From a virus: 42,611 bases of DNA. The position numbers and the translations under genes are program-made. The first letter of the stretch is position 1. The number at the start of each line of letters is the position of its first letter. The notes beneath the pieces were generated by a model. The model had not been told where the DNA came from, made no database searches, and saw nothing but the letters and a program-made list of their open reading frames with translations. Location of the stretch: positions 1 through 42,611 of the IMG/VR virus record IMGVR_UViG_3300035698_015694; one strand, given 5' to 3'. Of this stretch, positions 22,717-41,001 are shown in pieces.

Positions 22717-22757
22717 TAACATATTTTGCTATTTAATAACATAATTTGTTACATTTG
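22717..22757 (+). promoter_or_regulatory. Promoter with tandem TAACA-N5-TGTTA operators, copy 1
   Basis: TTG at 22726-22728 and TACATTTG at 22750-22757 are 21 bases apart. Two 15-bp palindromes lie over them: TAACATATTTTGCTA (22717-22731) and TAACATAATTTGTTA (22737-22751), with a 5-bp gap. Operator 1 covers the -33 box and operator 2 touches the -7 box. The same geometry recurs at 25048-25088 and 40961-41001. This copy drives the ParB-methyltransferase and terminase small subunit genes. Confidence 0.78.
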
Positions 22758-22793
22758 TTGCTAAACGTTTCCAAAGAAAATAAATACAAAATA

Positions 22794-24278
22794 ATGTCCC
22801 AAAAAACAATCACTTCAAGAATAATTAAAACCGAACTCATAAACTGGCGTGAACTCCAATTTATCCAACAAGAAAACTTTAAAGAATGGGTTAACAATGG
22901 CGCTGAAAAGCTAGTTGAATCTATTTTAAAATATCAATTTATTGCTCCGTTTATGGTTTGGCAAAGTGAAGGGATTAATTATTGCCTTGACGGTCGCCAC
23001 CGTTTTTTGGACCTTGAAAAGGTTTCTGAATTAGGCTCAAACGTTCCTAATCAATTGCCAGCAACTTTTGTTGATTGCGCTAACATTAAAGAAGCTGCCG
23101 AATTGGTTTTAGTTTACTCATCGCATTATGCAAAAATTACTCAACAGGGATTACTTGATTTTGTAAGCAACTTTGATTTGGACTTTCCAGATATGCAAGC
23201 GATGATGAATATTCCAGATTTTGACGATATTGCTTTTCAAGGACTGCTCAACAAATCGGAAGGAAAAGAGGAAGATAAAATTATTCCGTCCTCATTAAAA
23301 GAAAGCTTTATTTTTCCTCCGTTTTCAATTTTAGACACACGCTCTGGAGTTTGGCAGGATAGAAAGCGCAAATGGTTATCGCTGGGTTTTAATTCTCAAG
23401 AAACCAGAGAGGATGTTGAGTTAATAGCAAAAAGCGGACAATCATCCGGAGTTTATGAGCTTCGAAATAAAATGCGTGAGATTTTAGGACGCGACCCAGA
23501 GTGGGATGAAATCCTTGATTATGCCAAGAAAAAAGGAATGCACGTTTACGAAGGGGCAAGCATATTTGATCCCGTGCTTTGCGAACTTTCTTATCGATGG
23601 TTTTGTACTGTGGGTGGCAAAATTCTTGACCCTTTCGCTGGCGGTTCTGTTCGTGGCATTGTGGCTGGAATACTTGGTTATCCATACGAAGGAATTGATT
23701 TAAGACCGGATCAAGTAAAAGCCAACAGAAAACAAGCTGCCTTACTTTCTATTACGGATGTAAATTGGCACGCTGGGGATAGTAACGAGGTTCTTGACGA
23801 GGTTGAATTTAAGGAAGGTGTAGATTTTATCTACAGCTGTCCTCCTTATGCGTATCTTGAAAAATATAGTGATGACCCAAAGGATTTATCAAATATGAAT
23901 TACGAAGATTTTAAAGATGTTTATTTCAGTATCATTAAAAAATCAGTTAATCAATTAAATGATAATCGATTTGCATGTTTTGTAGTTGGCGATGTTCGCG
24001 ATAAGAGAGGTTTTTACTTAAACTTTGTTAGCGACACGATTCAAGCCTTCAAAGATGCTGGAATGGAATTATACAACGAAATAATTTTAGTAAATGTGGC
24101 GGGTAGTTTAGCCATTCGTGTTCGTCGTCAATTCAATGGTGGTCGTAAAATTGGTAAGATGCATCAAAACGTATTGGTGTTTTATAAAGGCGACCCAAAA
24201 AAGATTAAAGAAAATTATCCGGAACTTAATTTAGGAGAAGATTTAGAGGCATTGGACAATAATCCATCATCGATATAA
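22794..24278 (+). CDS. ParB-like domain fused to a DNA methyltransferase
   Basis: I choose the ATG at 22794 (494 residues) because an earlier in-frame start would lie inside the promoter. The N-terminus (residues 12-80) is ParB/sulfiredoxin-like, with the conserved DGRHR at 66-70. A linker with FPPFSILD leads to a methyltransferase domain at about 255-470, with DPFAGG (279-284) as motif I and SCPPY (348-352) as the catalytic motif typical of N4-cytosine or N6-adenine beta-class enzymes. It probably recognises and modifies phage DNA. It precedes the terminase in its transcript. Confidence 0.8.
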   Translation: MSQKTITSRIIKTELINWRELQFIQQENFKEWVNNGAEKLVESILKYQFIAPFMVWQSEGINYCLDGRHRFLDLEKVSELGSNVPNQLPATFVDCANIKEAAELVLVYSSHYAKITQQGLLDFVSNFDLDFPDMQAMMNIPDFDDIAFQGLLNKSEGKEEDKIIPSSLKESFIFPPFSILDTRSGVWQDRKRKWLSLGFNSQETREDVELIAKSGQSSGVYELRNKMREILGRDPEWDEILDYAKKKGMHVYEGASIFDPVLCELSYRWFCTVGGKILDPFAGGSVRGIVAGILGYPYEGIDLRPDQVKANRKQAALLSITDVNWHAGDSNEVLDEVEFKEGVDFIYSCPPYAYLEKYSDDPKDLSNMNYEDFKDVYFSIIKKSVNQLNDNRFACFVVGDVRDKRGFYLNFVSDTIQAFKDAGMELYNEIILVNVAGSLAIRVRRQFNGGRKIGKMHQNVLVFYKGDPKKIKENYPELNLGEDLEALDNNPSSI

Positions 24279-24321
24279 TTAAATTTTAAAGTAATTTTGG
24301 AAAAAATATAAAATTACTCCA

Positions 24322-24561
24322 ATGGACGATAAGCTAAAACTTGAAATAATGAGTACAACTGTAAATTCAATAAAGGAACTTCTGGAGAAAAGGCTAGAAA
24401 AAAGGTTAAACGCATTGGAGGCAATCGCATCAACGCCGTTGGATAATCTTCCAGAAATCATTCAAACCAAACGTGAGGACGAGGCTTCTAAAATTAGGGC
24501 GGTTGTTCAAGAGCAGCGTGATATTCTTGATATTATAAAATATTTGTTTCCAAATACATAA
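24322..24561 (+). CDS. Small coiled-coil protein before terminase
   Basis: A 79-residue, helical, charged protein (TVNSIKELLEKRLEKRLNAL) with heptad-like repeats over residues 12-60. It ends six bases before the terminase small subunit and probably shares its transcript. The function is unknown. Small coiled-coil proteins in this position can be packaging accessories. Confidence 0.5.
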   Translation: MDDKLKLEIMSTTVNSIKELLEKRLEKRLNALEAIASTPLDNLPEIIQTKREDEASKIRAVVQEQRDILDIIKYLFPNT

Positions 24562-24566
24562 ATTAT

Positions 24567-25028
24567 ATGGCTGGTATCAGATCAAGTAAATTAGAAACCG
24601 AAAAGCGAGTATTCACCATTCAAGGGTGGATAATTAATGGTGTGCCTGATTATTTGATTCTTAAAAACATTGAACAGCAGTACGCCGTTTGTAGAAGGCA
24701 GTCAAAAAACTTATTACAAAAGGCTTATAAAATTTGGCACGAAGAACAGCAATCTACTATTGAGCAAAAAAGATCTTTGAGGATTGCAGAATTAAAACAA
24801 GACATTAGGTCTATGAAAGAAATTCACAAAGGAACTCCGCAAGGAATGTCTGTGGTAAACTCTATTAAAAAGGAAATCTCAAAACTTGAAGCTTTGTATC
24901 CGGCACGTACACACATCATACAAGGCGACAAAGAAAAACCTTTAATAGTTAAAGATGGATTCGACGATGAGAAGCAAGCAAGACTGGACAAACTAATCGC
25001 CAAAATACTAGCAACTAGAGACGAATAG
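24567..25028 (+). CDS. terS: Terminase small subunit
   Basis: At 153 residues it has the length and architecture of small terminase subunits. An N-terminal helix-turn-helix-like region (EKRVFTIQGWIINGVPDYLILKNIEQQYAV) is followed by coiled helices (LRIAELKQDIRSMKEI) and a C-terminal segment (DGFDDEKQARLDKLIAKILATRDE). It recognises the phage packaging site and stimulates TerL, which is encoded 1.1 kb downstream across the RNA region. It has no catalytic motif, as expected. Confidence 0.75.
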   Translation: MAGIRSSKLETEKRVFTIQGWIINGVPDYLILKNIEQQYAVCRRQSKNLLQKAYKIWHEEQQSTIEQKRSLRIAELKQDIRSMKEIHKGTPQGMSVVNSIKKEISKLEALYPARTHIIQGDKEKPLIVKDGFDDEKQARLDKLIAKILATRDE

Positions 25029-25047
25029 TATTTTTTTCAATATTAAA

Positions 25048-25088
25048 TAACATATTTTGTTAGTTAATAATAAATTATGTTATTTTTA
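25048..25088 (+). promoter_or_regulatory. Promoter with tandem TAACA-N5-TGTTA operators, copy 2
   Basis: TTG at 25057-25059 and TATTTTTA at 25081-25088 are 21 bases apart. The palindromes are TAACATATTTTGTTA (25048-25062) and TAATAAATTATGTTA (25068-25082), again separated by 5 bp. The -7 box ends in A rather than G. It should drive the structured RNA, the tRNA and the head genes. Confidence 0.75.
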
Positions 25089-25100
25089 CAAAGTATAAAG

Positions 25101-25449
25101 ACATCAAACACTTGCAAAATCATATCGGATAAGAATGTGGAATAATCCGGTGTTTAAGAAGTTCCACATAGATTGATGTTTTTTCAAACGGGTAAGTAGC
25201 TCAGGTGTAATCAGGTATAAATCTACTGCGATTATTAGCACAAAGGTTAGAGCGCTGAATAAAAACAAATTTAAGGTCTGTGTACAGGATGCTTTCGTAT
25301 TGAAAGAAGTTTGTTTTCCAGAGGTCATTGGTTCGACCCCAATCTTCTCCACAACAACCCAGAAGGAAGGACAATCGAAAGATTTGTTTTATATGTTTAG
25401 CTAGCAAATAAAATAAATTTTCTCAAAAGTACAATGAGATAGATTGTCC
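25101..25449 (+). ncRNA. Structured non-coding RNA with an enlarged tRNA-like domain
   Basis: No convincing gene exists between 25029 and 25547. Paired segments are dense. ACATCAA (25101-25107) pairs TTGATGT (25173-25179). Within it ATGTGGAA (25135-25142) pairs TTCCACAT (25162-25169), and AAACAC (25106-25111) could pair with the loop sequence GTGTTT (25150-25155) as a pseudoknot. Next is the cloverleaf-like domain described separately (25190-25351). Then GGACAATC (25369-25376) pairs GATTGTCC (25442-25449) around two hairpins (25382-25418 and 25421-25439). It is preceded by a promoter and followed by a tRNA. Large phage RNAs near tRNAs, such as GOLLD or ROOL, are the nearest concept, but no match is claimed. 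Confidence 0.65.
25190..25351 (+). ncRNA. tRNA-like cloverleaf with inserts in the D and anticodon loops
   Basis: GGGTAAG (25190-25196) pairs CTTCTCC (25344-25350) with one mismatch and one G-U, and the discriminator is A25351. The D-stem is GCTC/GAGC (25199-25202, 25250-25253). The T-arm ATTGG-TTCGACC-CCAAT (25327-25343) is perfect. The anticodon stem is CTGAA/TCCAG with one mismatch. The D-loop holds a 40-base insert with its own helix (TAATC/GATTA). The anticodon loop holds a 50-base insert where AAAACAAA (25262-25269) pairs TTTGTTTT (25310-25317). No standard anticodon loop remains, so it is not a normal tRNA. Confidence 0.6.
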
Positions 25450-25457
25450 GATGAAAT

Positions 25458-25531
25458 AGCAAGGTAGAGCAGTTGGTCAGCTCGTTGGTCTCATAATCCA
25501 AAGGTCAGGGGTTCAAATCCCCTCCTTGCAA
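25458..25531 (+). tRNA. Initiator-type tRNA-Met (CAT), phage encoded
   Basis: A complete cloverleaf of 74 bases. The acceptor is AGCAAGG/CCTTGCA with an A1-A72 mismatch, the D-stem is GAGC/GCTC, and the anticodon stem TTGGT/TCCAA closes the loop CTCATAA. The variable loop is AGGTC and the T-arm AGGGG-TTCAAAT-CCCCT. The unpaired 1-72 position, the A11-U24 pair and the loop CTCATAA are features of bacterial initiator tRNA. Only two of the usual three GC pairs of the anticodon stem are present (the third is T-T). CCA is not encoded, as is usual for Bacteroidetes. Confidence 0.85.
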
Positions 25532-25547
25532 CTAAAAACAAAAAACA

Positions 25548-25934
25548 ATGATGTTAGAAATATCCAATAACAGAGTTATACTAAATGGTAAAGAAACCAT
25601 CAATGTAGAGGAGATTGGTTATGCATTATTAGACTATGCAGAAAACTTGCCAAACAATCAAAATGTAACTGATTTTGCATTTTTAGTAGATAGAAATGAC
25701 GTTGTAGATCGATTTACAAAATACTTATCTGATAATGCCTTTCGCAACACTTTAGAGCGTAGAAATTTAATTGAACTATTGGTAACGATGAATGATTTTA
25801 GCGCAAAGGATTTCGTTAATCAAGCAATGCAACTCAAGGCATCATATCCAACTTGCTATAATTTTTTAACGGTTTGCGTTGACGCTAAAATATTAAGCGC
25901 TTCTCCAAAGAATTACAAATTTATAAATTCCTAA
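25548..25934 (+). CDS. Phage protein of unknown function between tRNA and TerL
   Basis: 128 residues, helical, without membrane segments. Readable stretches include NNRVILNGKETINVEEIGYALLDYAENLP and FVNQAMQLKASYPTCYNFLTVC. It begins 17 bases after the tRNA and continues the late transcript toward TerL. No family is recognised. A packaging or DNA-processing role is possible only by position. Confidence 0.5.
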   Translation: MMLEISNNRVILNGKETINVEEIGYALLDYAENLPNNQNVTDFAFLVDRNDVVDRFTKYLSDNAFRNTLERRNLIELLVTMNDFSAKDFVNQAMQLKASYPTCYNFLTVCVDAKILSASPKNYKFINS

Positions 25935-25936
25935 CT

Positions 25937-26092
25937 ATGAATTCAGATACCTTAAAAATTCAATTACTTCAAAATATAGCAATTCAGAATTACCTTCTAG
26001 ATCACGGATCTAACGATGAGGTTATCAATACTAAAATCGAAGAAATTAGAAAGCAATTATTAGAGATTGAAAAGAATAGAAATAAAACATAA
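25937..26092 (+). CDS. 51-residue helical protein before TerL
   Basis: A short frame starts 3 bases after the previous stop and ends directly against the TerL start. It is fully helical (LLQNIAIQNYLLDHG, EEIRKQLLEIEKNRNK), probably a small coiled coil. Tight packing between two late genes supports its being real. The function is unknown. Confidence 0.55.
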   Translation: MNSDTLKIQLLQNIAIQNYLLDHGSNDEVINTKIEEIRKQLLEIEKNRNKT

Positions 26093-27559
26093 ATGCTTAC
26101 AGATGCTGAAATATTAGAACTCGAATCTCTATTGAAAGATAGGGATATTGATATTTCACGCAAAAGATTATTGAAAAATGATGCTGATGCAAACGCAAAT
26201 TACAATCTTCTAAAAAATGCAATCGAATCACAGAAATACGAAATCATAGATGGCAAACCAAAACTTGTTGCTGGATTTAGAGGCGCCGGACTTGAAGGAT
26301 CTTCTCGTTCAGGTAAAACTTGGTCAGGCATTGATATAATTATTTGGCTTTGCCTTTTCGTTGAATTAGATGGGTGTACCATTAATATCTATCGAGAGAC
26401 ATACAACGAATTTAAAACTACTCTTTATGATGATTTTAAACGTCGGCTTGATGATTTTGGACTACCTAATAAATTCAAGGAAAATGACGAAATAAAATCT
26501 TTCAGAATCGGAAATAGTAAAATATTTTTTATTGGTGATGGAAAACACGGAGGAGGGTGTGACTATGCTTTTTTTAATGAAGTAATGTTTATCAAGAAGT
26601 CTGTTTTTGACCAGGTTAAAATGCGTTGTCGTAAATTTTGGTGGGCAGATTATAACCCTTCATTTACCGAGCATTGGTTCTTTGATAACGCATTGAACAG
26701 GCCAGATGTAACATTTTTGCGAACTACATTCAATGACAATAAGCATATTTCAGCGCAAGAGCGTCAAGAAATTGTTATTACTGAACCGTGGAAAACAGGA
26801 TCTTACATCGTTAAAGACAATGTAATTCAGTGTTATAATAAATTGACTGGAAAAGTTGAGCCTATTTCAGCGACTAACCAGCCACCACCGCACATTGAAA
26901 ACATTAAGAACGGTACCGCTGACGAAAGTTACTGGCGTATTTATGGACTTGGCTTACGTGGGGCAATGAAAGGTTTGATATTTCCTTATGTTACATGGAT
27001 TGATAGTTTCCCAGAAGAGAAAGCGCCAATTTATCCAAATGATTTCGGCTTTACCACAGATCCAAACACACTTGTAAAGTATGCAGAAGATGATCATAAT
27101 ATTTGGATTGAACCATTAAGTTATGAGCCTATTGATAACCCAGAATCATTGTCTCAATTCCTTCAAAGTTTAGGAATTGATAAGGCTAAAGACATAATCC
27201 CTTGTGATAGTGCTGATAAATATACAGGCGAAAACAAAGGGACAGTCGAAATGGTAAAGGGATTGCGAAAAGAAGGTTTTGAGTTTGCCTATAAAATCAG
27301 CAAAACAAAGTCTGTTATTTTTTGGATTGGTTCAATGAAGAAAAAGAAAATTCACATTGTTAAAAATCATCTATATAATAAAGCTTTAAAAGAACAACAA
27401 AATTACAAAATGAAAGAAATTGGCGGCATTTCAATAAATCAGCCATTAGATAAGTTTAATCACATTTGGGATGCTGCACGATATGGCCACATCGCTCACA
27501 ATTCAAAAACAACAGTTCTTGCTACATCGCAAGAAGTATTAAATACAATTAATTACTAA
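26093..27559 (+). CDS. terL: Terminase large subunit
   Basis: The 488-residue packaging motor has both expected activities. The N-terminal ATPase has a Walker A GSSRSGKT (residues 69-76) and a Walker B region CDYAFFNE (156-163). The C-terminal nuclease has acidic residues in NDFGFTTDPN (D317) and PCDSADKY (D372), matching the RNase H-like fold of TerL enzymes. It cuts concatemeric DNA and drives it into the procapsid. The portal gene follows by 10 bases. Confidence 0.9.
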   Translation: MLTDAEILELESLLKDRDIDISRKRLLKNDADANANYNLLKNAIESQKYEIIDGKPKLVAGFRGAGLEGSSRSGKTWSGIDIIIWLCLFVELDGCTINIYRETYNEFKTTLYDDFKRRLDDFGLPNKFKENDEIKSFRIGNSKIFFIGDGKHGGGCDYAFFNEVMFIKKSVFDQVKMRCRKFWWADYNPSFTEHWFFDNALNRPDVTFLRTTFNDNKHISAQERQEIVITEPWKTGSYIVKDNVIQCYNKLTGKVEPISATNQPPPHIENIKNGTADESYWRIYGLGLRGAMKGLIFPYVTWIDSFPEEKAPIYPNDFGFTTDPNTLVKYAEDDHNIWIEPLSYEPIDNPESLSQFLQSLGIDKAKDIIPCDSADKYTGENKGTVEMVKGLRKEGFEFAYKISKTKSVIFWIGSMKKKKIHIVKNHLYNKALKEQQNYKMKEIGGISINQPLDKFNHIWDAARYGHIAHNSKTTVLATSQEVLNTINY

Positions 27560-27569
27560 TAACAATATC

Positions 27570-28991
27570 ATGGAAGAATTATTAGCATTGCTTGCTTCGG
27601 ACCCAAAAAAAGCCATTGCACAAATCAAATTAAAATCAAAGGATAACGCTAAAATAGTTGAGTATCGAAAAGAGTTTAAAGATTTTGATAGAACTATTCG
27701 CGAAACACAAGTAGGCAAAATTCAGAAAGATAAAAATATTGGAGTTGGCGAAAAATTTAAAAGCATAAAAGCCGTTAGAATTCCGATAAACTTTGCAAAG
27801 AAAATAGTAAATACCGCAACTGCTTTTGAAGTAGGAAAGCCCGTTAATTTCATTCCATCACAAGAAAGCGAACTTTCAAAGCTTATAGACTTGATTTGGA
27901 AAACAAATCGCCTTGATGCAGCTATTCAAAAATTAGTTTCGTTGTGCAAAACTGAAACTCAAAGCGCATTAAATTTCTACATTTACAATATTAAAGTAGA
28001 TGGAATCTTTAATAAAATTCTTTCGTCATTAGGCCTTACGGCAAGCAAAGAAATCAAAGTTAAAGTGCTCGATAATACTTCGGGAACTATGACGCCGTAT
28101 TTTGATGCAAACGGAAATATGCAACTATTCATGTGGGAGTATCAAACGATTGATCGCGCCGAAAAGTCGATTAATAATGTTCAAATTTGGGATGAAAAAT
28201 CATCTTTAATTTATAACGATGCTTCTGGAAGCATGATTCAAATTAGTAAAATTCCACACGGATTTGATAGAATTCCGATAGTTTATACTTCACAAGATGA
28301 GCCTGAGTGGTTTGATGTTAAAGATTTAATTGATAGGTTTGAAGTTGCCATTTCTAAAGGCGGCGGCGCCAATGATAGAACCGCTCACCCTATCTTGATG
28401 ACTGTTGGGGAAATCGCATCGCTTCCAGATAAAGATGATGATGGAAAAGTGATTAATTTTCCAATGAAAAAAGACGATGAAGGAAAGTATGTAAACGGCA
28501 CGGCTTCATTCATTGAATCATCTGGAGGAAATGAAAGCCATAAAAACGAATTGGAGTTGGTTTACAAGCTTATTTTTGCAATATCACAAACTCCTGATTT
28601 ATCATTTGACAATTTGAAAGGCCTAGGCAATGTTTCGGGAGTTGCTTTGAAGCTGATGTTCTTAGATGCTATTATCAAAGCGACAATGAACGAGGGAACT
28701 AATCGCACAATGATTGAAAGGATATTAAATATTATAATTTCAGGAATTGTTACAACAACTAATACAGGCATGAAAACTCAAGCTGCATCTTTGTATTACG
28801 ATATAATATTTAACTCAATTCTGCCCGATGATTTAGCCTCTGCAAGTGCTGTAATAATCGATTTAAAAGATGCAGGTTTAATATCTTCTTCAACCGCGAT
28901 AAAAATGCTTGACATTGTTGACAATCCAATCGAGGAATTAGCATTGGTTAAAGCGGAGAAAGCAACAGAAGTTATTCCGAAAACTCTATAA
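27570..28991 (+). CDS. Portal protein
   Basis: The 473-residue protein directly follows TerL, as portal genes do. It shows the long helical body and stretches typical of SPP1-like portals: VRIPINFAKKIVNTATAFEVGKPVNF, a conserved YTSQDEPEWFDVKDLIDRFE, and later FDNLKGLGNVSGVALKLMFLDAI. Twelve copies of such a protein form the ring through which DNA enters the head and to which the neck attaches. No separate protease or MuF-type gene is seen right after it. Confidence 0.85.
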   Translation: MEELLALLASDPKKAIAQIKLKSKDNAKIVEYRKEFKDFDRTIRETQVGKIQKDKNIGVGEKFKSIKAVRIPINFAKKIVNTATAFEVGKPVNFIPSQESELSKLIDLIWKTNRLDAAIQKLVSLCKTETQSALNFYIYNIKVDGIFNKILSSLGLTASKEIKVKVLDNTSGTMTPYFDANGNMQLFMWEYQTIDRAEKSINNVQIWDEKSSLIYNDASGSMIQISKIPHGFDRIPIVYTSQDEPEWFDVKDLIDRFEVAISKGGGANDRTAHPILMTVGEIASLPDKDDDGKVINFPMKKDDEGKYVNGTASFIESSGGNESHKNELELVYKLIFAISQTPDLSFDNLKGLGNVSGVALKLMFLDAIIKATMNEGTNRTMIERILNIIISGIVTTTNTGMKTQAASLYYDIIFNSILPDDLASASAVIIDLKDAGLISSSTAIKMLDIVDNPIEELALVKAEKATEVIPKTL

Positions 28992-28992
28992 T

Positions 28993-29178
28993 ATGAATAT
29001 TCCTAACGAGTACGAAATACAAGATATTGTTTATTTAAGGCACGACATCGAACAACTTCCAAGAATGGTAGTGGCCATAATTTGGGATGGCCACAAAGTA
29101 ATGTATGAGCTCATTTCAGGAACTACCGCATCACAACATTACAGCTATGAAATTTCTAACATAAAAATAATCTACTAA
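28993..29178 (+). CDS. Small beta-rich phage protein
   Basis: 61 residues, MNIPNEYEIQDIVYLRHDIEQLPRMVV at the start, then WDGHKVMYELISGTTASQHYSYEIS. It looks like a small beta-barrel domain. It begins one base after the portal stop and its own stop overlaps the next ATG by one base, so it is operon-linked. A role in neck or packaging is not shown. Confidence 0.5.
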   Translation: MNIPNEYEIQDIVYLRHDIEQLPRMVVAIIWDGHKVMYELISGTTASQHYSYEISNIKIIY

Positions 29179-29396
29179 TGATAAAATCAATTCTAAATTA
29201 CTTCTACGAAAGAGCCAAACGCAAAGCTCGTATAAAGGCAAAAACTGAAAGCGTAATTCAAGATTACGAAAAATTGATTAATGAATTTAAGGAAATTCAA
29301 GAACGTCCTTCTCGATTTTCCAAAAAGACAAAAGATAGAGTTAATTCCAGAGTTCAGTATCTAATCAGAAAAGGGCATATTAAAGTAAATCAATAA
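29178..29396 (+). CDS. Small basic phage protein
   Basis: A 72-residue protein, strongly basic and helical (FYERAKRKARIKAKTESVIQDYEKL), ending KGHIKVNQ. It may bind nucleic acid. Its stop lies directly before the operator-containing promoter at 29397, so this is the end of the first late head block. Confidence 0.5.
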   Translation: MIKSILNYFYERAKRKARIKAKTESVIQDYEKLINEFKEIQERPSRFSKKTKDRVNSRVQYLIRKGHIKVNQ

Positions 29397-29437
29397 TACG
29401 CAATATTGTGTAATTTTGTAAAAGTTTTGTATATTTA
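29397..29437 (+). promoter_or_regulatory. Promoter overlapped by a repressor-type operator (small RNA)
   Basis: TTG at 29406-29408 and TATATTTA at 29430-29437 are 21 bases apart. The palindrome TACGCAATATTGTGTA (29397-29412) differs from the early operator by one or two bases and covers the -33 box. The predicted start is near 29445. Confidence 0.65.
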
Positions 29438-29444
29438 CAATCTC

Positions 29445-29513
29445 GAAGTATGAAGCGATACTTTTCAATTCAATATCTAAAACACCTACTATTCATTTGG
29501 TAGGTGTTTTTTT
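29445..29513 (+). ncRNA. Candidate small RNA of about 70 bases
   Basis: From the predicted start near 29445, the sequence forms a first hairpin, AAGTAT/ATACTT with a GAAGCG loop (29446-29463). After a single-stranded stretch comes an 11-bp terminator stem (29479-29489 with 29500-29510) and a T run. A promoter followed after 70 bases by a terminator with no open frame is the signature of a small RNA or an attenuated leader. Confidence 0.55.
29479..29513 (+). terminator. Intrinsic terminator
   Basis: AAAACACCTAC pairs GTAGGTGTTTT around a 10-base loop and is followed by a T run. It ends the predicted short transcript and separates it from the lipoprotein gene at 29556. Confidence 0.85.
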
Positions 29514-29555
29514 AATTAAACAAAGTTTTAAACTATAAGTTAACAATAAAATAAC

Positions 29556-29771
29556 ATGAAAAAATCAATTTTTACATTGCTATTATTAGCAACATTAGTT
29601 TCTTGCTCAAAGGATGACTGCATCGGGAACTACGACGAAATTTACAACCACTACCAACAGCAAATCGAACAGGTTATTGCAAATACGATACCTGGATTGG
29701 GAGTTGATTACAGAAAAATTAATTTATTAAAGCAAGAAAGAGACGGAAAGCTTGCAAACGCATGTAGGTAA
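29556..29771 (+). CDS. Small putative lipoprotein
   Basis: The 71-residue protein has a classic lipoprotein signal (MKKSIFTLLLLATLVSC) with the lipidated Cys at residue 17. A polar, helical mature part follows (YNHYQQQIEQVIANTIPG). It lies among head genes but is not a structural type, so it resembles an inserted moron. Membrane-anchored phage lipoproteins often block superinfection or aid lysis; this is only a suggestion here. Confidence 0.7.
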   Translation: MKKSIFTLLLLATLVSCSKDDCIGNYDEIYNHYQQQIEQVIANTIPGLGVDYRKINLLKQERDGKLANACR

Positions 29772-29783
29772 AACAACAAAAAA

Positions 29784-30038
29784 ATGAAAGTAACGGGCAA
29801 AGTCCACCACATTGGACAAACAGAAAACATTGGAAGTAATGGATTTACTAAAAGATTATTGGTAGTTGAAACCGCTGAACAATATCCACAGAAGCTACCA
29901 ATTGAATTTGTAAAAGAGAAATCCTCATTATTGGATGCTATTCAAATTGGTCAGGAAGTAACTATAAGCATTAATTTAAGAGGTAGTGAACACAATGGAA
30001 AGTATTACTCTCAAATTCAGGGTTGGAAAGTTGAGTAA
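29784..30038 (+). CDS. DUF3127-like OB-fold protein
   Basis: 84 residues. The pattern MKVTGKVHHIGQTENIG then KRLLVVETAEQYPQKLPIEFV, GQEVTISINLRGSEHNGKYYSQIQGWKVE matches the DUF3127 family, an OB-fold-like domain thought to bind single-stranded DNA. It is common in Bacteroidetes phages and chromosomes. The position downstream of the lipoprotein indicates a small accessory operon. Binding to single-stranded DNA is expected from the family and not demonstrated here. Confidence 0.7.
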   Translation: MKVTGKVHHIGQTENIGSNGFTKRLLVVETAEQYPQKLPIEFVKEKSSLLDAIQIGQEVTISINLRGSEHNGKYYSQIQGWKVE

Positions 30039-30058
30039 TTAAGTTTTTAAAATATAAA

Positions 30059-30289
30059 ATGATGGAACAAATAATTTACGAAATAAAGGGAATTAAATAT
30101 GTGCTTTTTTTATTACAATTATCTGATAGAAATGAAGGTAAAGAAATGGTAAATACGGTTATAAAAATGAATGGAATAATTCAGTCTTATGAAGTTGTTG
30201 AAGCCTTTTGGGCTGGTATATCTATAAAAGCAAAAGTATTAATTCCAGAAGAATTCGCTCACTTATTTAGTGATATTGAAATGGTATAA
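30059..30289 (+). CDS. Small phage protein, unknown
   Basis: 76 residues, mixed beta-alpha (QIIYEIKGIKYVLFLLQLSDR then SIKAKVLIPEEFAHLFSDIEMV). No signal peptide or catalytic motif is visible. It lies in the same accessory block as the DUF3127-like gene, 20 bases after it. The frame has two adjacent ATG codons at its start. Confidence 0.45.
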   Translation: MMEQIIYEIKGIKYVLFLLQLSDRNEGKEMVNTVIKMNGIIQSYEVVEAFWAGISIKAKVLIPEEFAHLFSDIEMV

Positions 30290-30299
30290 ATAATTTAGT

Positions 30300-30518: not shown

Positions 30519-30546
30519 TTCATCCCTCATTCGAGAGAAGAAAATC

Positions 30547-30582
30547 AAAACCCGCACATCTTAAATGGTGTGCGGTTTTTTT
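30547..30582 (+). terminator. Intrinsic terminator before the capsid operon
   Basis: CCGCACA (30552-30558) pairs TGTGCGG (30569-30575), flanked by A and T runs that extend the stem, followed by T residues. It separates the accessory block from the scaffold/capsid operon. Confidence 0.85.
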
Positions 30583-30616
30583 GTGTATAAAAATATTATT
30601 TATAATTATTCCAAAT

Positions 30617-33063: not shown

Positions 33064-33064
33064 C

Positions 33065-33646: not shown

Positions 33647-33648
33647 AA

Positions 33649-34182
33649 ATGAATTATAACAACTACCCACCAATCGGCATTGATGCAAAGTTTCTGAATT
33701 TACAGAACGCTTTGTCAACTCATTTAGAGTTTGCTAATGTTGATTTTTACGGACGTGTTTTAAAAACATTGGCCAAAGATGGAAAGAGTTTTATTCCAGA
33801 GGTTCATGTCTCGAATAGCGAAAGAAAAGAAGTGTATTACGACGATATCAATGCAGTTGGCGGTAACGTCTTTTTTATTGATTCAGAGGAGCACACAACT
33901 AAAGATGGAACTTTATTCACCGCTAAAATTAAAGTTGTTTTTATGCTAAATATTGATAAACTTATTCCTGGTAAAACTTACCGTGCGGATGTAGAAGTTC
34001 AGGAAAAATGCATAAAACTAATTAACAAACTACGGATTTTTAATGTAACCGGAATTGAAAAAGGACTTTCAAATGTAATGAAAGGATTCAATATCGAAGG
34101 CGTTAGAAAAAACGATTTACAGCCTTACCACACATTTGCGGTATTAGGCAATTTGAATTACATGTTTAATTGTAAAAAATAA
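33649..34182 (+). CDS. Tail completion or neck protein
   Basis: 177 residues with alpha-beta composition. It includes DAKFLNLQNALSTHLEFANVDFYGRVLKTL and a beta-rich C-terminal half (TFAVLGNLNYMF). It sits between the connector and the major tail protein, where head-tail joining or tail terminator proteins are found. It starts two bases after its neighbour. Confidence 0.55.
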   Translation: MNYNNYPPIGIDAKFLNLQNALSTHLEFANVDFYGRVLKTLAKDGKSFIPEVHVSNSERKEVYYDDINAVGGNVFFIDSEEHTTKDGTLFTAKIKVVFMLNIDKLIPGKTYRADVEVQEKCIKLINKLRIFNVTGIEKGLSNVMKGFNIEGVRKNDLQPYHTFAVLGNLNYMFNCKK

Positions 34183-34187
34183 AAATT

Positions 34188-35054
34188 ATGACATCAATTA
34201 TTGAATGCGCAAAAGACGGAGCGGTTTTAAGAAACACAGGAACTAACGAGGAGTGCCTTGTTGGTCCAGTAGTTCGATACGCCTTGGCAAAAACAGACCA
34301 AGAATTTGCAACCGCAACCGCAGCAAAAACATTGCCGGCTTGGAAGGCGGCAGTTGCTGCAAAAGAAATTATTCCATTGTTTGACATTGAAGTTTTAGCA
34401 AACGCAAACATAGAAGCCACATTTTATGAAGCTCGAAAAAGATACCAAACTAAATCTGAAAAGAAAGTAGTTACGTCTGAGGTTCATTTAGGCGTGTGCT
34501 CGTATGCTGCAATGTTGTCTTACAATGGTAAGAAAATGAGACTGTATGAGTTCACCGACGATCAAAAGATTGTTGGTGTTACCAATGAGGCGGGAATCAT
34601 TGTAAAAGGTCAATTAGTAACAGTAGAAGTAGGTATGTTGATTCCTGCTTTGGATGACAAACCTCAATTTGCAATAGTGACTGTTACCTATGAGGACTGG
34701 AAAGAATTCATTAATAATCCAGTTGTATTGGCTCCATCTTGGTCTCAAATTAGTTTAAACGGTATATTTGATTCTTACATCAAGATTGTTTCTGCTTCTG
34801 CAACTTCTGTAAAATTTACAGTAGATGGCGGGTGCTCTGGCGATAAAGTAACTTCTCTTGAAGATGCAGATTTGACTTTCAAAAAAGCAAATGGAACTCC
34901 GGTAGCCCATACTTTCGTTCCAGCAGATGCAAACGGAGTTTATGAATACACAGGAACTGGTTTCTTGACAGGCGACTTGGTTGGTTTAAATGGCGTTGTT
35001 TCGCAACCTGACGCTATTTATGAAGCCGTGAAGGCAGTCGCAATTATGTTGTAA
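34188..35054 (+). CDS. Major tail tube protein
   Basis: The 288-residue protein has the beta-sandwich composition of tail tube proteins in its N-terminal half (VLANANIEATFYEARKRYQ, KKVVTSEVHLGVCSYAAM). Its C-terminal part resembles an Ig-like domain (SWSQISLNGIFDSYIKIVSASATSVKFTVDGG), often added to siphovirus tail tube proteins. Its position before the tail genes and the tape measure supports the call. Confidence 0.7.
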   Translation: MTSIIECAKDGAVLRNTGTNEECLVGPVVRYALAKTDQEFATATAAKTLPAWKAAVAAKEIIPLFDIEVLANANIEATFYEARKRYQTKSEKKVVTSEVHLGVCSYAAMLSYNGKKMRLYEFTDDQKIVGVTNEAGIIVKGQLVTVEVGMLIPALDDKPQFAIVTVTYEDWKEFINNPVVLAPSWSQISLNGIFDSYIKIVSASATSVKFTVDGGCSGDKVTSLEDADLTFKKANGTPVAHTFVPADANGVYEYTGTGFLTGDLVGLNGVVSQPDAIYEAVKAVAIML

Positions 35055-35056
35055 TC

Positions 35057-35236
35057 ATGGATAAAAACAAATACAAAGGAATTGTTTTTGAAGAAAACTA
35101 TTCCAGAACATTTGACCAATTCCAGAAGGAATTTCAGGACGTGTGGGTGTTTAGAATGCTACCCGAAAAGGAAAAGTTAGCCGAACTTAAAATAGCTTTT
35201 AAAGTAGCTACAAAAAGTCAGGAAGAAAAAAAGTAA
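35057..35236 (+). CDS. Small protein after the major tail protein
   Basis: The 59-residue charged helical frame starts two bases after the tail tube gene and ends 21 bases before the terminator. It includes FDQFQKEFQDVWVFRMLPEK and a Lys/Glu-rich tail. Short genes here can be tail assembly chaperones, but no frameshift partner is seen. Function uncertain. Confidence 0.55.
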   Translation: MDKNKYKGIVFEENYSRTFDQFQKEFQDVWVFRMLPEKEKLAELKIAFKVATKSQEEKK

Positions 35237-35257
35237 AATAAATTTTATTGATACAAG

Positions 35258-35291
35258 AGGTCAAAACTACAGTTGTGGTTTTGACCTTTTT
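35258..35291 (+). terminator. Intrinsic terminator after the tail tube genes
   Basis: AGGTCAAAAC (35258-35267) pairs GTTTTGACCT (35278-35287) around a 10-base loop and is followed by a T run. Tail genes downstream therefore need readthrough or antitermination, since no obvious promoter lies between this hairpin and the 35304 start. Confidence 0.88.
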
Positions 35292-35303
35292 TGATTAAAA
35301 ACA

Positions 35304-35753
35304 ATGGCAAACTTCCAGCAACAATTACAGCGGTCAAATCAAATAATTCCTGACATAGTCAGCAATATGTTGTTTGACTATATACGCTCCATCAGTAAAG
35401 AATTAATCGATTTAAACCGTGAGCAAATCAAAAAAGACAGTCAAGATATTTATGGAAATGCAATTGGTTTTTATTCCGCTGCAACTGATTTTATCACACA
35501 AGGAAAAAAAGGCGAAGGCGAGCCGTTTACTGGCGATGATACTGGTTCCTTTTTAAAATCATTTTACATGACTGTTTATGATAACGTGTTTTATTTTGGA
35601 GCAACTGATCCTAAAACAGATGATATTTTGAGTTCGCCAAATTGGTTGTCTCAAGATTTATTTGGACTGACAGAATCTAATTTAAACGAAGTTATTGAGA
35701 ATAAATTCAAGCCTTTTTTAATCACTTATTACCGAAAATCTTTAGCATTATGA
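35304..35753 (+). CDS. Tail assembly or minor tail protein
   Basis: 149 residues, helical first half (FQQQLQRSNQIIPDIVSNML, DYIRSISKELIDLNREQIKKDS), then Gly/Asp-rich (GEGEPFTGDDTGSFLKSFYM). Its stop overlaps the next ATG (ATGA), so it is coupled with the 192-residue gene. Two short genes between tail tube and tape measure are the usual position of tail assembly chaperones, but homology is not recognised. Confidence 0.5.
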   Translation: MANFQQQLQRSNQIIPDIVSNMLFDYIRSISKELIDLNREQIKKDSQDIYGNAIGFYSAATDFITQGKKGEGEPFTGDDTGSFLKSFYMTVYDNVFYFGATDPKTDDILSSPNWLSQDLFGLTESNLNEVIENKFKPFLITYYRKSLAL

Positions 35754-36328
35754 TTTATAAAAGTTTAAGAATACTACCAATGGTTATCTGCGTTGAAATA
35801 ATGCAGACAGGCGACTTGACCTTACTTGCAGATGAAGAAATCACGAGCGATCAACTAATTGATATTTGGGAAAAAATTGAAGAAGATTTTCAAAGGTTGT
35901 CAGGAAATAAAGATGTTGACAAAATATTTAATGTTTCAAAAGAAATTGAATATCAAGAAAACCGATATGATTTGATTAACCACTCTTGCGATGCTTTGAT
36001 TTTCGATAAAAACGAAAGATTAATTCAACTATTGGAAGATGAAGGATATTCAATTAATACTGAAAACTACATAAACGATGTTGAAAGAATTTCTAGACAA
36101 TCAAATGGTATTTTAAACCGAATCAAACAATTGAAAGATTTACTGCCAAAAGAGAAAACATCTAAATCAAAAGACGAAAACTCAATTGTAGATGTAATGG
36201 CCAGTTATTCATCAATACTGGGATTTGACTTTGAATTTTTTACTTGTTCGGTAGAAAAATTCTTTTCTCTTGAAAAAATGGTCAAAGCAAAATTGAAAGC
36301 AATAGAAAAAAATAACCCTAAAAAATAA
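35750..36328 (+). CDS. Putative tail assembly chaperone
   Basis: A 192-residue acidic helical protein (QTGDLTLLADEEITSDQLIDIWEKIEEDF, RISRQSNGILNRIKQLKDLLP) directly before the tape measure gene. This is where the chaperone that coats the tape measure during tail assembly is normally encoded. I see no slippery heptamer, so no gpG/gpGT frameshift is claimed. Coupled by ATGA to the preceding gene. Confidence 0.5.
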   Translation: MIYKSLRILPMVICVEIMQTGDLTLLADEEITSDQLIDIWEKIEEDFQRLSGNKDVDKIFNVSKEIEYQENRYDLINHSCDALIFDKNERLIQLLEDEGYSINTENYINDVERISRQSNGILNRIKQLKDLLPKEKTSKSKDENSIVDVMASYSSILGFDFEFFTCSVEKFFSLEKMVKAKLKAIEKNNPKK

Positions 36329-36332
36329 TATC

Positions 36333-36881
36333 ATGGCTGAAGGTCAAATAACACGGAGAGATATAATTGAAGATGAAGCGCTTAAATGGGGTGGTGAATA
36401 TGCAAAAACTTTAGATTTAGCAATTAGCAAAAACAAAGAGTTCGTAGATGGTATTATTTCTATGAAAGTTGCAAATGAAAAATTACGAGCTTCTGAAGAT
36501 AAAAAAGACTACATCGAAAATTTAAGAAATGTTGAAATTGAATCAAAAAAAACTATTGCATCAATTAAAGAACAGTTAGTTTTAGAAACTTCTTTAGAAA
36601 AAATAAAAAAAGAGAAAATTAGCACCTCGAAAGTTGAATTAGATTTAAATGTCAAGAAAGCCAAAGCGGCAAAAGAACTTTCTAGTTTAATGGCGGTTGA
36701 AGAAAAGCTAAATCAAGAAAAATTAAAAACAGAAAAAGAAAGAATCATACTTGAAAAACAAATTGCAGATTTAGAAATTAAAAAACAGCAATTAAAAAAT
36801 GCAGGTCTTGCCGTTACAAAATCTGAACTTGATTTAATTCAAAAAGAAGAAATTATAAAGAAAAACAAACTTGCTATTTAA
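36333..36881 (+). CDS. Tape measure protein, N-terminal part before an in-frame TAA
   Basis: 182 residues of helical coiled coil (KNKEFVDGIISMKVANEKL, EEKLNQEKLKTEKERIILEK). The TAA at 36879-36881 is in frame with an uninterrupted open reading of more than 1300 codons to 40895. The codons around it (GCT ATT TAA AAA GAA) continue the same charged coiled-coil composition, so the stop seems to divide one gene. A single substitution such as CAA or AAA to TAA would explain it. A sequencing error, readthrough or a damaged gene cannot be told apart here. Confidence 0.7.
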   Translation: MAEGQITRRDIIEDEALKWGGEYAKTLDLAISKNKEFVDGIISMKVANEKLRASEDKKDYIENLRNVEIESKKTIASIKEQLVLETSLEKIKKEKISTSKVELDLNVKKAKAAKELSSLMAVEEKLNQEKLKTEKERIILEKQIADLEIKKQQLKNAGLAVTKSELDLIQKEEIIKKNKLAI

Positions 36882-39800
36882 AAAGAAGCTTCAAAATTAA
36901 AAGCACAGCAGATAATTTCGAAAGAAAACATATATGTTTGGAAAGAACAAAATCAGGCAGAACAGGCGTTAATTTCCACAAAAAGAAAAAATCAATTAGC
37001 AACTGAGAGCACAAACAGATCGCTTACCAAAGAGCGTGTTTTATTGCAAGAAACAAATAAAGAAATAAAACTGCAAGCGCGTGAAAGTCTTGGACTAGTT
37101 TCTACTTACGAGAAATTAAACAGATCTAGAAATGAAGCGCAAACCAGATTAGCCAACTTACTATCCGCTGAAAAAAGAAGTACAGCCGAAATAATTGTTG
37201 CACAACGAGAATTTAATAAACTTGACATTAGAGTAAAAGCCGTAGATGCTTCAATTAACAACTATTCAAAAAACATAGGAAACTACGGTAGTGCTTTTCA
37301 AGGACTAAATAGCACCGCACGCGAATTACTTTCTACTTTCGGATTAGTTAGCGGTTTGGCGTTGTTCGGAACTGTCATTAAGGATATTTTCGGCACGGTA
37401 AAAGATTTTGACCGCCAATTAATTGCTGTTGGAAAAACAACTAACATTACAGGCGAAGATTTGAATATTTTTGGGCGCGAAGTAGTAAAGTTAGGAAATG
37501 ATTTGGACGGTGTTTCTGTCGAAGGATTATTAAAGTCTGCCGAAGTTGCAGGAACACTTGGTGTAAAAGGAACTGATAATATTTTAAAGTTTTCAACAGC
37601 AATTGAGAAATTAAAACTTACTTCTGATATTATTTCAGAAGAGCAGGTTCAAAATTTTGCAAAGTTCATCGAGGTTTCTTCTGACAGCTTTGAAAACGCT
37701 GACAAACTAGCATCTGTAATCACTCAATTAGGAAACAATTTTGCCACTACAGAAGCGCAAATTTTAAGCAATGCGACTGAAATTGCCAAAGGCGTTGCTG
37801 TTTATAACACTTCTGCTGAAGGCGTTTTGGCTTTAGGTGCCGCGACCTCTTCTTTAGGTTCTGAAGCTGAAAGTTCAAGAAGCGCCATTCAATCCACATT
37901 TGCAATTATAAACAAAGCGGTTGCAACTGGTAAAAATCTTGAAGAGGTTTTAAGGCTTACTGGATTGACACAAGCAGAGCTATCCAAACAATTTAATGAA
38001 GATGCAACAGGTGTCTTTCAGAAGTTTGTCAAAGGATTAAATACAGCTAAAGAGGGCGGAGAAAACCTTTCTTTGGTTTTAGAAGATTTAGGATTGACCG
38101 AAAAAAGAGCTTTTACAGTGGTGGGGTCTCTCGCTGCTAATTATTCAGTTCTTGAAGGCGCTATGGCTTCGGCTAAAAAAGAATACATTGACAATATTGC
38201 GCTCAACAAAGAAGTAGAAGCTGCTTCACAAAGCATCGCTTCAATTATTGGCGACATTAAAGATAGATTTGATGCTTATGTACTTTCTGCAAATGATGCG
38301 AATGGCGGCACTCAAAGATTGGCATCTGCCTTGAAATTTGTCCGTGATAACCTTTCAAGCATTATTGACGGATTTATTAAATATGGTGCTGTTTTGCTAA
38401 CATTTTTAGGCGTTCAAAAAGCGATAACACTTGCAACGGCACTTTATACAGCTGCAAAAGTTGCGGGAACTGCTGCGCAAGTATCGTTTACAACTGCAAC
38501 TGGAATTGGAACAGTTGCAATGAAAGCACAAGCATTGGCCGCTCAAGAAGCTACTGTTTCTCAAAACGCACTGAACCTTGCTACTAAAGCGACACCGTGG
38601 GGAATTATTTTAGCAGCACTCGCAGCTGTTGTTGTTGCTTACATTGCTTTTAATGACGAACTATCCGATGCAGAAAAAAGAATTGAAAGAATAAAAGCTA
38701 TTTCAGCTGATTATTCGGAATCTGAAAAATATTATGCAGGGGAAAGTGATAAGTTTAGAGAAAAAAGATTTTCTATAATTCAAAAAGAAATAGATCTTAG
38801 AAGAGCACAAGGGGAAGATGGTAAAATGTTAGACATTGAGGAAATTCAAAGTAAAAAAAATGTTGTAAGAGCAGAAATTGAAAATTTAATTAACTTAAAA
38901 AATACTGAAATAGAAAGGACCTCAAATGAAATTAATAATTCTAAAAAGAGAATTGCACAAGCTGAATTCGAAAAGTCTGCGTTGGTAAAAGCAAATTTCA
39001 GACGCAATTTAAACGGTGATAGTGTTGATGATTTGAATAAAAACATTTCCAAGGAGAAGGAAAGATTAGATCTAACAAAAACTATAAACCAAGAAGCCTC
39101 AAAATCAAAGATTTCAGAGCTAACCAGACTTAACGGCATATTATCTGACTTGGATAAAAATCAAGCAATAAAAGACGCAGAAAATCAGACTGAAAAAAAT
39201 AAAAAATCTATTGAAGCTGCAAAGAAAGCCGAAGCGGATCGTATTAAATTGCTTAAAGAACGCTACGATGCTGAAAAGAAACTAATCGACGAAAGTTTTA
39301 AATTAAGTCAATTTCGTCTCCAGGTTGCAATGGATGTTGAAAATGAAATCGCCACCAATGAAAAAAAATCCTTTGATGAAAGACTAGATTCTCTTTTATT
39401 ATTTAATCAAATTCGAGAAGCCAAGACCAAAGATGCGGCCGAATATGAATTGCAGCAGTTAGGTACTTACAACGAAAAATCAGGAAAGTTCATCCGCCAA
39501 TTGTCAGATTTTGAAATAACCGAACTATTAGAAACTGGTAAATCAAAAGGTAAAATAACAGATGAACAAAGATTAATATCTGAAAAATACCAAAATGACT
39601 TAACCGCTTTTGCTAAAAAAGGAAAAGACGACAGAACGAAATTAATTGATGCAGAGGTTGATGCGATTCAGAAAAAAACAGATGCAGAATTACAACTTAA
39701 AACCAATACTCTTAATCAAGATGTAGTTGGAGAAAATGATCGTTATGCGTTAGAATTACAATCTGCTGAAGGTAATTTTAAGCTGATTGAAGCAGCACGC

Positions 39801-40895
39801 GAAGAGCACGAAAGAATACTTCAAGATATTCAAAAGAAATATGCTTTAGATGGAATACAATTGCAAATCGATAGTATTCAAAGCACTTTAGACACGAACG
39901 ATGCCAAAGAATCTTCTGAACAAATTTCAGCGGAAAAAAGAGCGGAAATAGTGGCTAAATTAGAAGCATTTAAACGAGAAGCATCTGATTTAACTGTGCA
40001 AGAATTTGATGCAAATGCACAAAAACTAGTTGAACTTCAAAAAGAAGCCAATGCGCAATTAACTGATTTAGCTTTTGGTTTAGCGGATGCGTTAGTTGAT
40101 TTGACGAATGCGATTTTTGATGCTAGAATTAATAATATTGATAATGAAATAGCTGCAAATAATGAGTTTTATAATACTCAAATAGAAGCTGCTGGAGATA
40201 ATGAACGCCAAAAGAAATTCCTTGAAGAAGAACGAGAAAAGAGAAATAAAGAATTAGAAAAAAAGCGTCAAAAAGAAGCTTACAAAGCCGCGGTATTTAA
40301 TAGGGTTATGGCAATAGCTGATATTGCAATTAAAACAGCACAGGCGATCATGGCAGCTAATTTAACGATTCAAGCCATGAATGCTATTTCATTTGGTATT
40401 GCTGGAACTACTTATGGTGCTTTTGCAATTCCTTTAATTTTAGCAACGGCGGGAATACAAGCCGGAGCCATTTTAGCTACTCCATTACCAAAATACAAAC
40501 ACGGACGTAAAGACGGACCAGATGAATTTGCAATTGTTGGAGACGGCGGTCGCCCAGAGGTTGTTTCTGATCCAGATGGCTCAAATCCTAGACTAACGCC
40601 TAAAGTTCCTACTTTAACTTTCTTAAGAAAAAAGGAACGTGTTCACAGTTCCATTGATTCGTATGAAAAATATGTTCGGAATGCTAATTTACAATCCTTG
40701 CAAGAAACTGGCAATAAGGCCAGGGATTATCAAATGAATGTGAATGTAGATAATGCTTATGGAAAAGAATTGCTATTTGAATTAAGAGAAAACACAAAAG
40801 CAATTAAGCATCAAAAGAATAGTACCACCGTAAATATTCCAAAGATTGATTTAGGTCACGAGTTTTGGAAAATGAAAAACACTCGTTGGAATTAG
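36882..40895 (+). CDS. Tape measure protein, main part
   Basis: The open frame after the TAA continues to 40895; the first possible start is a TTG at 37044 (1283 residues). It contains a PhageMin_Tail/TP901-like region (FDRQLIAVGKTTNITGEDLN, KSAEVAGTLGVKGTDNILKF), a hydrophobic membrane-like stretch (LAALAAVVVAYIAF), long coiled coils and a C-terminal part with glycine and a second hydrophobic stretch. The frame length with the N-terminal part, about 1520 codons, sets tail length. It is the longest gene of the window, as expected for this protein. Confidence 0.85.
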   Translation, partial: KEASKLKAQQIISKENIYVWKEQNQAEQALISTKRKNQLATESTNRSLTKERVLLQETNKEIKLQARESLGLVSTYEKLNRSRNEAQTRLANLLSAEKRSTAEIIVAQREFNKLDIRVKAVDASINNYSKNIGNYGSAFQGLNSTARELLSTFGLVSGLALFGTVIKDIFGTVKDFDRQLIAVGKTTNITGEDLNIFGREVVKLGNDLDGVSVEGLLKSAEVAGTLGVKGTDNILKFSTAIEKLKLTSDIISEEQVQNFAKFIEVSSDSFENADKLASVITQLGNNFATTEAQILSNATEIAKGVAVYNTSAEGVLALGAATSSLGSEAESSRSAIQSTFAIINKAVATGKNLEEVLRLTGLTQAELSKQFNEDATGVFQKFVKGLNTAKEGGENLSLVLEDLGLTEKRAFTVVGSLAANYSVLEGAMASAKKEYIDNIALNKEVEAASQSIASIIGDIKDRFDAYVLSANDANGGTQRLASALKFVRDNLSSIIDGFIKYGAVLLTFLGVQKAITLATALYTAAKVAGTAAQVSFTTATGIGTVAMKAQALAAQEATVSQNALNLATKATPWGIILAALAAVVVAYIAFNDELSDAEKRIERIKAISADYSESEKYYAGESDKFREKRFSIIQKEIDLRRAQGEDGKMLDIEEIQSKKNVVRAEIENLINLKNTEIERTSNEINNSKKRIAQAEFEKSALVKANFRRNLNGDSVDDLNKNISKEKERLDLTKTINQEASKSKISELTRLNGILSDLDKNQAIKDAENQTEKNKKSIEAAKKAEADRIKLLKERYDAEKKLIDESFKLSQFRLQVAMDVENEIATNEKKSFDERLDSLLLFNQIREAKTKDAAEYELQQLGTYNEKSGKFIRQLSDFEITELLETGKSKGKITDEQRLISEKYQNDLTAFAKKGKDDRTKLIDAEVDAIQKKTDAELQLKTNTLNQDVVGENDRYALELQSAEGNFKLIEAAREEHERILQDIQKKYALDGIQLQIDSIQSTLDTNDAKESSEQISAEKRAEIVAKLEAFKREASDLTVQEFDANAQKLVELQKEANAQLTDLAFGLADALVDLTNAIFDARINNIDNEIAANNEFYNTQIEAAGDNERQKKFLEEEREKRNKELEKKRQKEAYKAAVFNRVMAIADIAIKTAQAIMAANLTIQAMNAISFGIAGTTYGAFAIPLILATAGIQAGAILATPLPKYKHGRKDGPDEFAIVGDGGRPEVVSDPDGSNPRLTPKVPTLTFLRKKERVHSSIDSYEKYVRNANLQSLQETGNKARDYQMNVNVDNAYGKELLFELRENTKAIKHQKNSTTVNIPKIDLGHEFWKMKNTRWN

Positions 40896-40960
40896 TCTTT
40901 TTTAGTAATTTTTTAGAATAAATTTAAAATCATAAAAAGTAATATTCGATAATTACTAAA

Positions 40961-41001
40961 TAACAAAATATGTTAGTTGTTAATATATTATGTTATTTTT
41001 G
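40961..41001 (+). promoter_or_regulatory. Promoter with tandem TAACA-N5-TGTTA operators, copy 3
   Basis: Palindromes TAACAAAATATGTTA (40961-40975) and TAATATATTATGTTA (40981-40995) are again 5 bp apart. The -7 box is TATTTTTG at 40994-41001, and the base triplet at the -33 position is ATG (40970-40972) rather than TTG, 21 bases upstream. It precedes the final tail gene. Confidence 0.72.

Follow-up and report, generated by a model that had tools for sequence, protein, structure and literature searches.

The window analysed here is the entire IMG/VR record IMGVR_UViG_3300035698_015694 (42,611 bases, 33% GC), and three of its promoters carry the same pair of adjacent palindromes; the question raised by these sites is which protein reads them, and with what effect on transcription. 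Tandem operator 1 (TAACATATTTTGCTA tttaa TAACATAATTTGTTA) is located at 22717..22751 on the plus strand, 5' of a unit encoding a methyltransferase and a small-terminase-like protein. Tandem operator 2 (TAACATATTTTGTTA gttaa TAATAAATTATGTTA) is at 25048..25082 (+) and tandem operator 3 (TAACAAAATATGTTA gttgt TAATATATTATGTTA) at 40961..40995 (+), 5' of a structural gene at 41020. The 35-bp architecture of a 15-bp dyad, a 5-bp gap and a second 15-bp dyad, with centres 20 bp apart, was borne out at 22717, 25048 and 40961, the sequence TAACA-N5-TGTTA being exact in three of the six dyads and carrying one mismatch in the other three. Of the units that these sites had been proposed to head, the one at 25048 was found as described (tRNA-Met, the 128-amino acid (aa) open reading frame (ORF) at 25548, terminase large subunit, portal and head genes, all downstream of operator 2), but the naming of the unit at 40961 as that of the last tail gene did not hold, since this gene is last only because the record stops at 42611.

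When compared with random sequence, the pattern TAAYA-N5-TGYTA-N5-TAAYA-N5-TGTTA was found 3 times in the window and not once in 300 dinucleotide shuffles. Single dyads numbered 6, against 0.26 expected, and all of them belonged to the three pairs. A weight matrix derived from the six dyads gave them scores of 17.8-21.6, with the next best site of the window at 8.1, a gap somewhat inflated by the training of the matrix on the same six dyads.

At each site the second dyad overlaps a TAnnTTTG -7 box by two bases, its TA; the boxes are located at 22750..22757 (+) for promoter 1 (TACATTTG, predicted start near 22762), at 25081..25088 (+) for promoter 2 (TATTTTTA, predicted start near 25093) and at 40994..41001 (+) for promoter 3 (TATTTTTG, predicted start near 41006). 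In Flavobacterium psychrophilum the -7 box spans -12 to -5 (PMC9723704), and with the box so placed the operator extends over -45..-11 and the dyads are centred at -38 and -18. The original prediction of a -33 element at 21-base spacing and of a -7 box in all three promoters was correct in part: TTTG stands at sites 1 and 2, with TATG in its place at site 3, and TAnnTTTG is perfect at sites 1 and 3 but lacks its final G at site 2. In the window and its relatives together the -7 box was perfect in 40 of the 44 operator sites, all with the lambda-type layout of two symmetric dyads on one DNA face over -35-like and -10-like elements.

With the methyltransferase behind site 1 as query, 72 related viral loci were obtained, and about 30 relatives carried the same architecture just 5' of the methyltransferase start codon. 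In 27 aligned promoters the complementarity between arms was 0.67, 0.64 and 0.69 at offsets 7, 17 and 27, respectively, against 0.23-0.50 at nearly all other offsets. Offsets 7 and 27 correspond to the two dyads and offset 17 to the point between them, so that the operator consists of four half-sites 10 bases apart in alternating orientation. A second site, about 2.3 kb downstream and 5' of the terminase-large/head unit, was present in most relatives, in which the regulon usually comprises one promoter on either side of the small-terminase gene. Site 3 (40961) had no counterpart at that place in the relatives and was seen in the window only; an extra site in the middle region was seen in a few phages (G015, G019 and G041). 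The first 50 kb of Nekkels_1, a phage with a related terminase and no annotated integrase, yielded no site of this kind.

The half-sites differ between phages (TAACA, TTGTA, GAATA, TATCA, TAACT) and are largely common to the sites of any one phage. TAACA half-sites occur in the window, in G003 and at one site of G012, TTGTA in G011 and G014, TATCA/TAGCA in G010, and TAACA mixed with TTGCA/TTGTA in G002, G005, G016 and G013. Such agreement within a phage is expected if a phage-encoded protein changes its specificity and its operators follow. In G015 and G004 the inner half-sites are GAATA and the outer ones stay TAACA (or TAATA/TAGCA), which makes the 35 bp one large palindrome with two kinds of half-site.

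The protein that follows these changes was sought by Mantel comparison of the window proteins common to at least nine operator-bearing phages, with the methyltransferase-promoter operators read at a fixed promoter position. The highest correlation with the operator among all window proteins tested was that of an 86-aa protein with a predicted Cro/CI-like helix-turn-helix (HTH), encoded at 2217..2477 (-) and termed HTH86 (r = 0.58, p = 0.0005, the floor of the test); the operators had been read without reference to it. Operator distance was also correlated with the distance between the recognition helices of HTH86 (about residues 35-42, EQTISKIK, in the window; r = 0.53, p = 0.0001, n = 20), and the correlation of this helix persisted after the remainder of the protein was accounted for (r = 0.45, p = 0.0004). 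The helix varies between phages and its flanks are conserved. Among the natural pairs, the G015 protein (ILRQTIYKIK) goes with a GAATA site, that of G014 (MQEGTLSKIQ) with TTGTA and that of G037 (MRTQTLTKIR) with TAACT. HTH86 was found by ORF search in 20 of the 21 operator-bearing phages and by tblastn (L177) in the remaining one, G036. Among the other proteins, r was -0.09 for CI, 0.05 for capsid, 0.16 for integrase, 0.20 for the methyltransferase and 0.21 for a Cro-like protein, the ATPase falling between the extremes of this range. The earlier view of the sites as a late regulon to which a single phage factor binds is supported. Three small HTH proteins, at 250, 2217 and 3904, had been put forward as that factor; the second is the one that covaries with the operators, and the other two are disfavoured, the first being present in just 2 of 20 relatives and the third showing an r of about 0.2-0.26 and often having another protein in its place. 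A conserved 71-aa protein at 20923 was likewise rejected as late regulator (no HTH match, found in 10 of the 21 operator-bearing phages, r = -0.20).

HTH86 also served as a query. Several of the phages retrieved in this way and devoid of the methyltransferase carry the tandem site before a small subunit of the Pfam family Terminase_2 and/or before a 25548-like gene and the terminase-large unit. In one of them, G037, a scan that fixed the geometry and no letters found a perfect pair of TAACT-N5-AGTTA dyads, and a second TAACT operator of the same geometry precedes its homolog of the small-terminase-like protein, both at the positions expected for these sites. Because the TAACT specificity had not been seen before, G037 is a fair test of the link between HTH86 and the operator.

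HTH86 is predicted to be a small HTH protein, possibly of the five-helix fold. Its AlphaFold model was of high confidence, with a predicted local distance difference test (pLDDT) score of 90.7, with helices at residues 24-31 and 35-42, and the nearest PDB folds were Xre proteins including C.BclI, C.Esp1396I, TP901-1 CI and 434 Cro, all weak matches (E ≥ 0.03, template modelling (TM) score about 0.55). The sequence scored 16.2 bits against Pfam HTH_3, under the curated cut-off of 23, and no NCBIfam match was obtained. Homologs were detected in 14 of 20 contigs by tblastn (a profile search was also run), and those in RAP44-type phages are annotated as hypothetical. For two of the remaining contigs, G006 and G017, the record breaks off at the expected place of HTH86, between the CI operon and the integrase, and the missing match need not mean that the gene is absent.

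In almost all the phages a leftward operon with the genes for CI and a small secreted protein or lipoprotein ends in HTH86, which adjoins the integrase. In the window the -7 box of the operon promoter (TAAATTTG, 3680..3687, -) is followed by the CI-type repressor gene (HTH_3 and Peptidase_S24 domains, 2923..3573, -), the small secreted/lipoprotein gene (phrog_21933, 2487..2906, -) and, after 9 nt, HTH86; in most relatives this last gap is 0-2 nt. Within 200 bp upstream TAnnTTTG was found for none of 21 HTH86 genes, versus 15 of 21 CI genes, and no tandem site is present at HTH86's own gene in the window. The CI proteins of the operon often differ strongly between phages, and HTH86 persists.

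Taken with the operon layout, these computational results on the sites, their geometry, conservation and covariation indicate that the tandem dyads are probably the binding site of HTH86, and that HTH86 probably acts as a lysogeny repressor clamping the late promoters. Two adjacent HTH86 dimers on the same DNA face would occupy the four alternating half-sites and with them the promoter region between -45 and -11, down to the TA of the -7 box used by the host sigma-A; such occupancy should block sigma-A polymerase. HTH86 would be made together with CI from the leftward operon. In the lysogen, the early promoter would be shut by CI, at separate operators of a different sequence, and the terminase and head promoters (here also that of the structural-gene unit) directly by HTH86, as a second tier below CI. 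On induction, inactivation of CI would stop the operon, the level of HTH86 would drop or the protein would be diluted as the phage DNA replicates, and the late promoters would open. Somewhat less securely, temperate phages of flavobacteria may share a two-tier immunity in which CI acts on the early promoter and the co-transcribed small repressor HTH86 on the late ones, the second-tier specificity changing independently of CI and giving matched protein-operator pairs with an inferable recognition code.

Several observations weigh against this interpretation. The operators were compiled by hand from promoter positions, the phages are related, which makes the Mantel p-values approximate, and the extra phages in the comparison were retrieved through HTH86 itself. 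Part of the helix-specific signal comes from the GAA-type phages: when they were left out, the correlation of the recognition helix given the rest of the protein was 0.35 (p = 0.016), with the remaining sequence correlating at least as well. A plain homodimer of single specificity leaves the difference between inner and outer half-sites in G015 and G004 unexplained. The geometry scan found no such site in the HTH86-bearing contigs G040, G042, G045, G047, G048 and G021, some of which are incomplete and others of which have a diverged HTH86. Finally, TTTG is found at -33 in just 13 of the 44 operator sites, a poor -33 such as an activated promoter might have.

The last point, set beside a -7 box that is nearly always perfect, leads to the alternative that HTH86 binds these sites and activates the late promoters, compensating the poor -33. 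The first dyad, centred at -38, is near the class II activator position, and a precedent is provided by gp6 of GIL01, a LexA homolog which activates the late promoter P3 from -43.5 (PMC6182141). Against this, the second dyad spans -25..-11 and overlaps the -7 box, the weak -33 may be general to flavobacterial promoters, and HTH86, whose gene belongs to the CI operon and lacks a separate promoter box, would be produced at a time when the late genes have to be kept silent. Activation by HTH86 is considered unlikely. The originally proposed action on RNA polymerase, which suggests an activator, fits less well, since the coverage of the core promoter down to -11 and the position of the gene in the CI operon point to repression, which, if HTH86 is the factor, is much the more probable sign of its action.

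It is slightly less probable again that the operator is bound by some other product of the phage, be it CI, the Cro-like protein, the small-terminase-like protein or one that escaped notice, and that HTH86 only travels along. The small-terminase-like protein, encoded at 24567-25028 between the two operators, was the runner-up in the Mantel comparison (r = 0.49), but five operator-bearing phages lack it, and given the recognition helix its correlation dropped to 0.17 (p = 0.11), as linkage would give. CI was rejected as the factor because it shows no correlation and has a different presumed operator, and the operator is common to phages with unrelated CI. That the dyads are sites of a host regulator, or promoter-linked AT-rich sequence with no dedicated phage factor, is very improbable and already largely refuted, for although the phage is AT-rich and the -7 box itself supplies two dyad bases, the shuffled sequences gave no match, the geometry is fixed in about 30 phages, and the half-sites change together within a phage, matching a phage gene.

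Among known systems, the controllers of restriction-modification (R-M) systems C.Esp1396I, C.BclI and C.Csp231I resemble HTH86 as small HTH proteins with the nearest predicted folds (PMC3758141, PMC4321490), and their tandem operators, bound by two dimers, measure 35 bp in Esp1396I and consist of 15-bp sites with a 5-bp centre in Csp231I. In C.Esp1396I two cooperative dimers form a tetrameric repression complex on the 35-bp double operator (PMC3758141), and by analogy this complex may be a good physical model for HTH86 on its operator. HTH86 differs in having neither an R-M partner nor an operator at its own gene, in its recognition sequence and in its proposed targets, the phage late promoters; its gene lies between the CI operon genes and the integrase, not in the context of an R-M controller.

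In lambda, OR1 and OR2 over PR are likewise adjacent dyads that cover both core elements and are bound by Cro/CI-like HTH proteins, with cooperative dimers expected here too; the present operators differ in lying on late promoters with a spacing of 20 bp, the presumed early switch having CI operators of its own. P22 Mnt, of the second immunity region, also accompanies the main lysogenic repressor as a small additional one, but it is a ribbon-helix-helix protein acting on ant from its own region and not on late structural promoters. In the lysogen of the Bacillus tectivirus GIL01 a repressor linked to lysogeny acts directly on a late promoter, P3, to silence it, and a small LexA-like phage protein acts at the promoter, but the repressor is host LexA with gp7 and the activator gp6 is needed (PMC6182141). 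The stoperators of Cluster A mycobacteriophages (PMC9262239) similarly place a lysogenic repressor outside the early promoter, where it silences leaky genes. They are, however, many asymmetric oriented sites of one repressor acting on elongation. Sites of that kind, spread over the genome, were not found here; the tandem sites of the window are three, symmetric and every one at a promoter, and a second protein would bind them.

By textbook logic, the silence of late genes in a lysogen is due to the lack of their activator, and a repressor encoded in the CI operon and dedicated to late promoters would, if confirmed, be a departure from it. The components are already known in kind, namely an Xre-like repressor and a tandem operator. 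In the open-licence literature searched, no description was found of the HTH86 family, of a CI-operon repressor dedicated to late promoters in phages of Bacteroidota, or of late-gene timing in these phages, which is poorly known. The analysis yields a named protein, a probable operator and about 20 natural protein-operator pairs of at least five specificities, and the question of late-gene control is therefore directly testable. A further possible use of the pairs is as orthogonal repressible promoters in Flavobacterium.

The window is a temperate phage, with genes for an integrase, an S24-type CI repressor, RecT, a resolvase, methyltransferases, terminase, portal, capsid and tape measure. Its host is very probably a flavobacterium, because relatives of HTH86 are present in Flavobacterium genomes. 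The first gene after operator 1 encodes a ParB-like/N6-N4 DNA methyltransferase fusion (22794..24278, +), and the 153-aa protein at 24567..25028 (+) was assigned to the place of the small terminase subunit by its position and appearance, with no family match. The tRNA-Met (CAT) is at 25458..25532 (+) and the terminase large subunit at 26093..27559 (+); between operator 2 and the head genes the tRNA-Met was the only RNA to pass in Rfam, and the leader there is not conserved between phages. The gene after operator 3 (41020..42609, +) encodes a virion structural protein (phrog_15220) and runs off the end of the record.

The presumed operators of CI, TATAAAATATTGTGTA (3605) and TACACAATATTGTGTT (3634), occupy 3605..3649 beside the rightward early promoter, whose -7 box is TATATTTG (3651-3658), and in the window their sequence differs from that of the TAACA operator. 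A near-perfect copy, TACGCAATATTGTGTA, is found at 29397-29412 in an intergenic stretch of the late region (29397-29555), hinting at a CI-controlled promoter or a moron there. The product of the gene at 2487-2906 is a secreted protein or lipoprotein in most relatives, and its place recalls that of the Ltp-type lipoproteins which are encoded in lysogeny modules and act in superinfection exclusion (PMC3952083). Between the integrase and HTH86, at about 2041-2100, where the attachment site is expected, a tRNA-like fragment was noted in which ARAGORN called no complete tRNA.

The Riemerella phage RAP44 (L240) has the same layout of CI, an intervening gene, HTH86 (31% identity) and integrase at 43722-46582. 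No site of the tandem geometry was found in RAP44, and a different repeated element (AAAACACGCTTTTAAAATC or its complement) stands in front of its NinG, portal, head and tape-measure genes. Phages that share only the N-terminal part of the methyltransferase (L085, L086, L088, L089 and L092) have dyads of other geometry at that promoter; in L086 and L088 GTAAT-N7-ATTAC-N7-ATTAC adjoins the -7 box and possibly belongs to another type of regulator. The leader behind the methyltransferase promoter (22758-22776 in the window; consensus TTGCATAATGTTNCCAAA) is kept in all 27 aligned phages, with an almost invariant CC, and its conservation is independent of the operator type.

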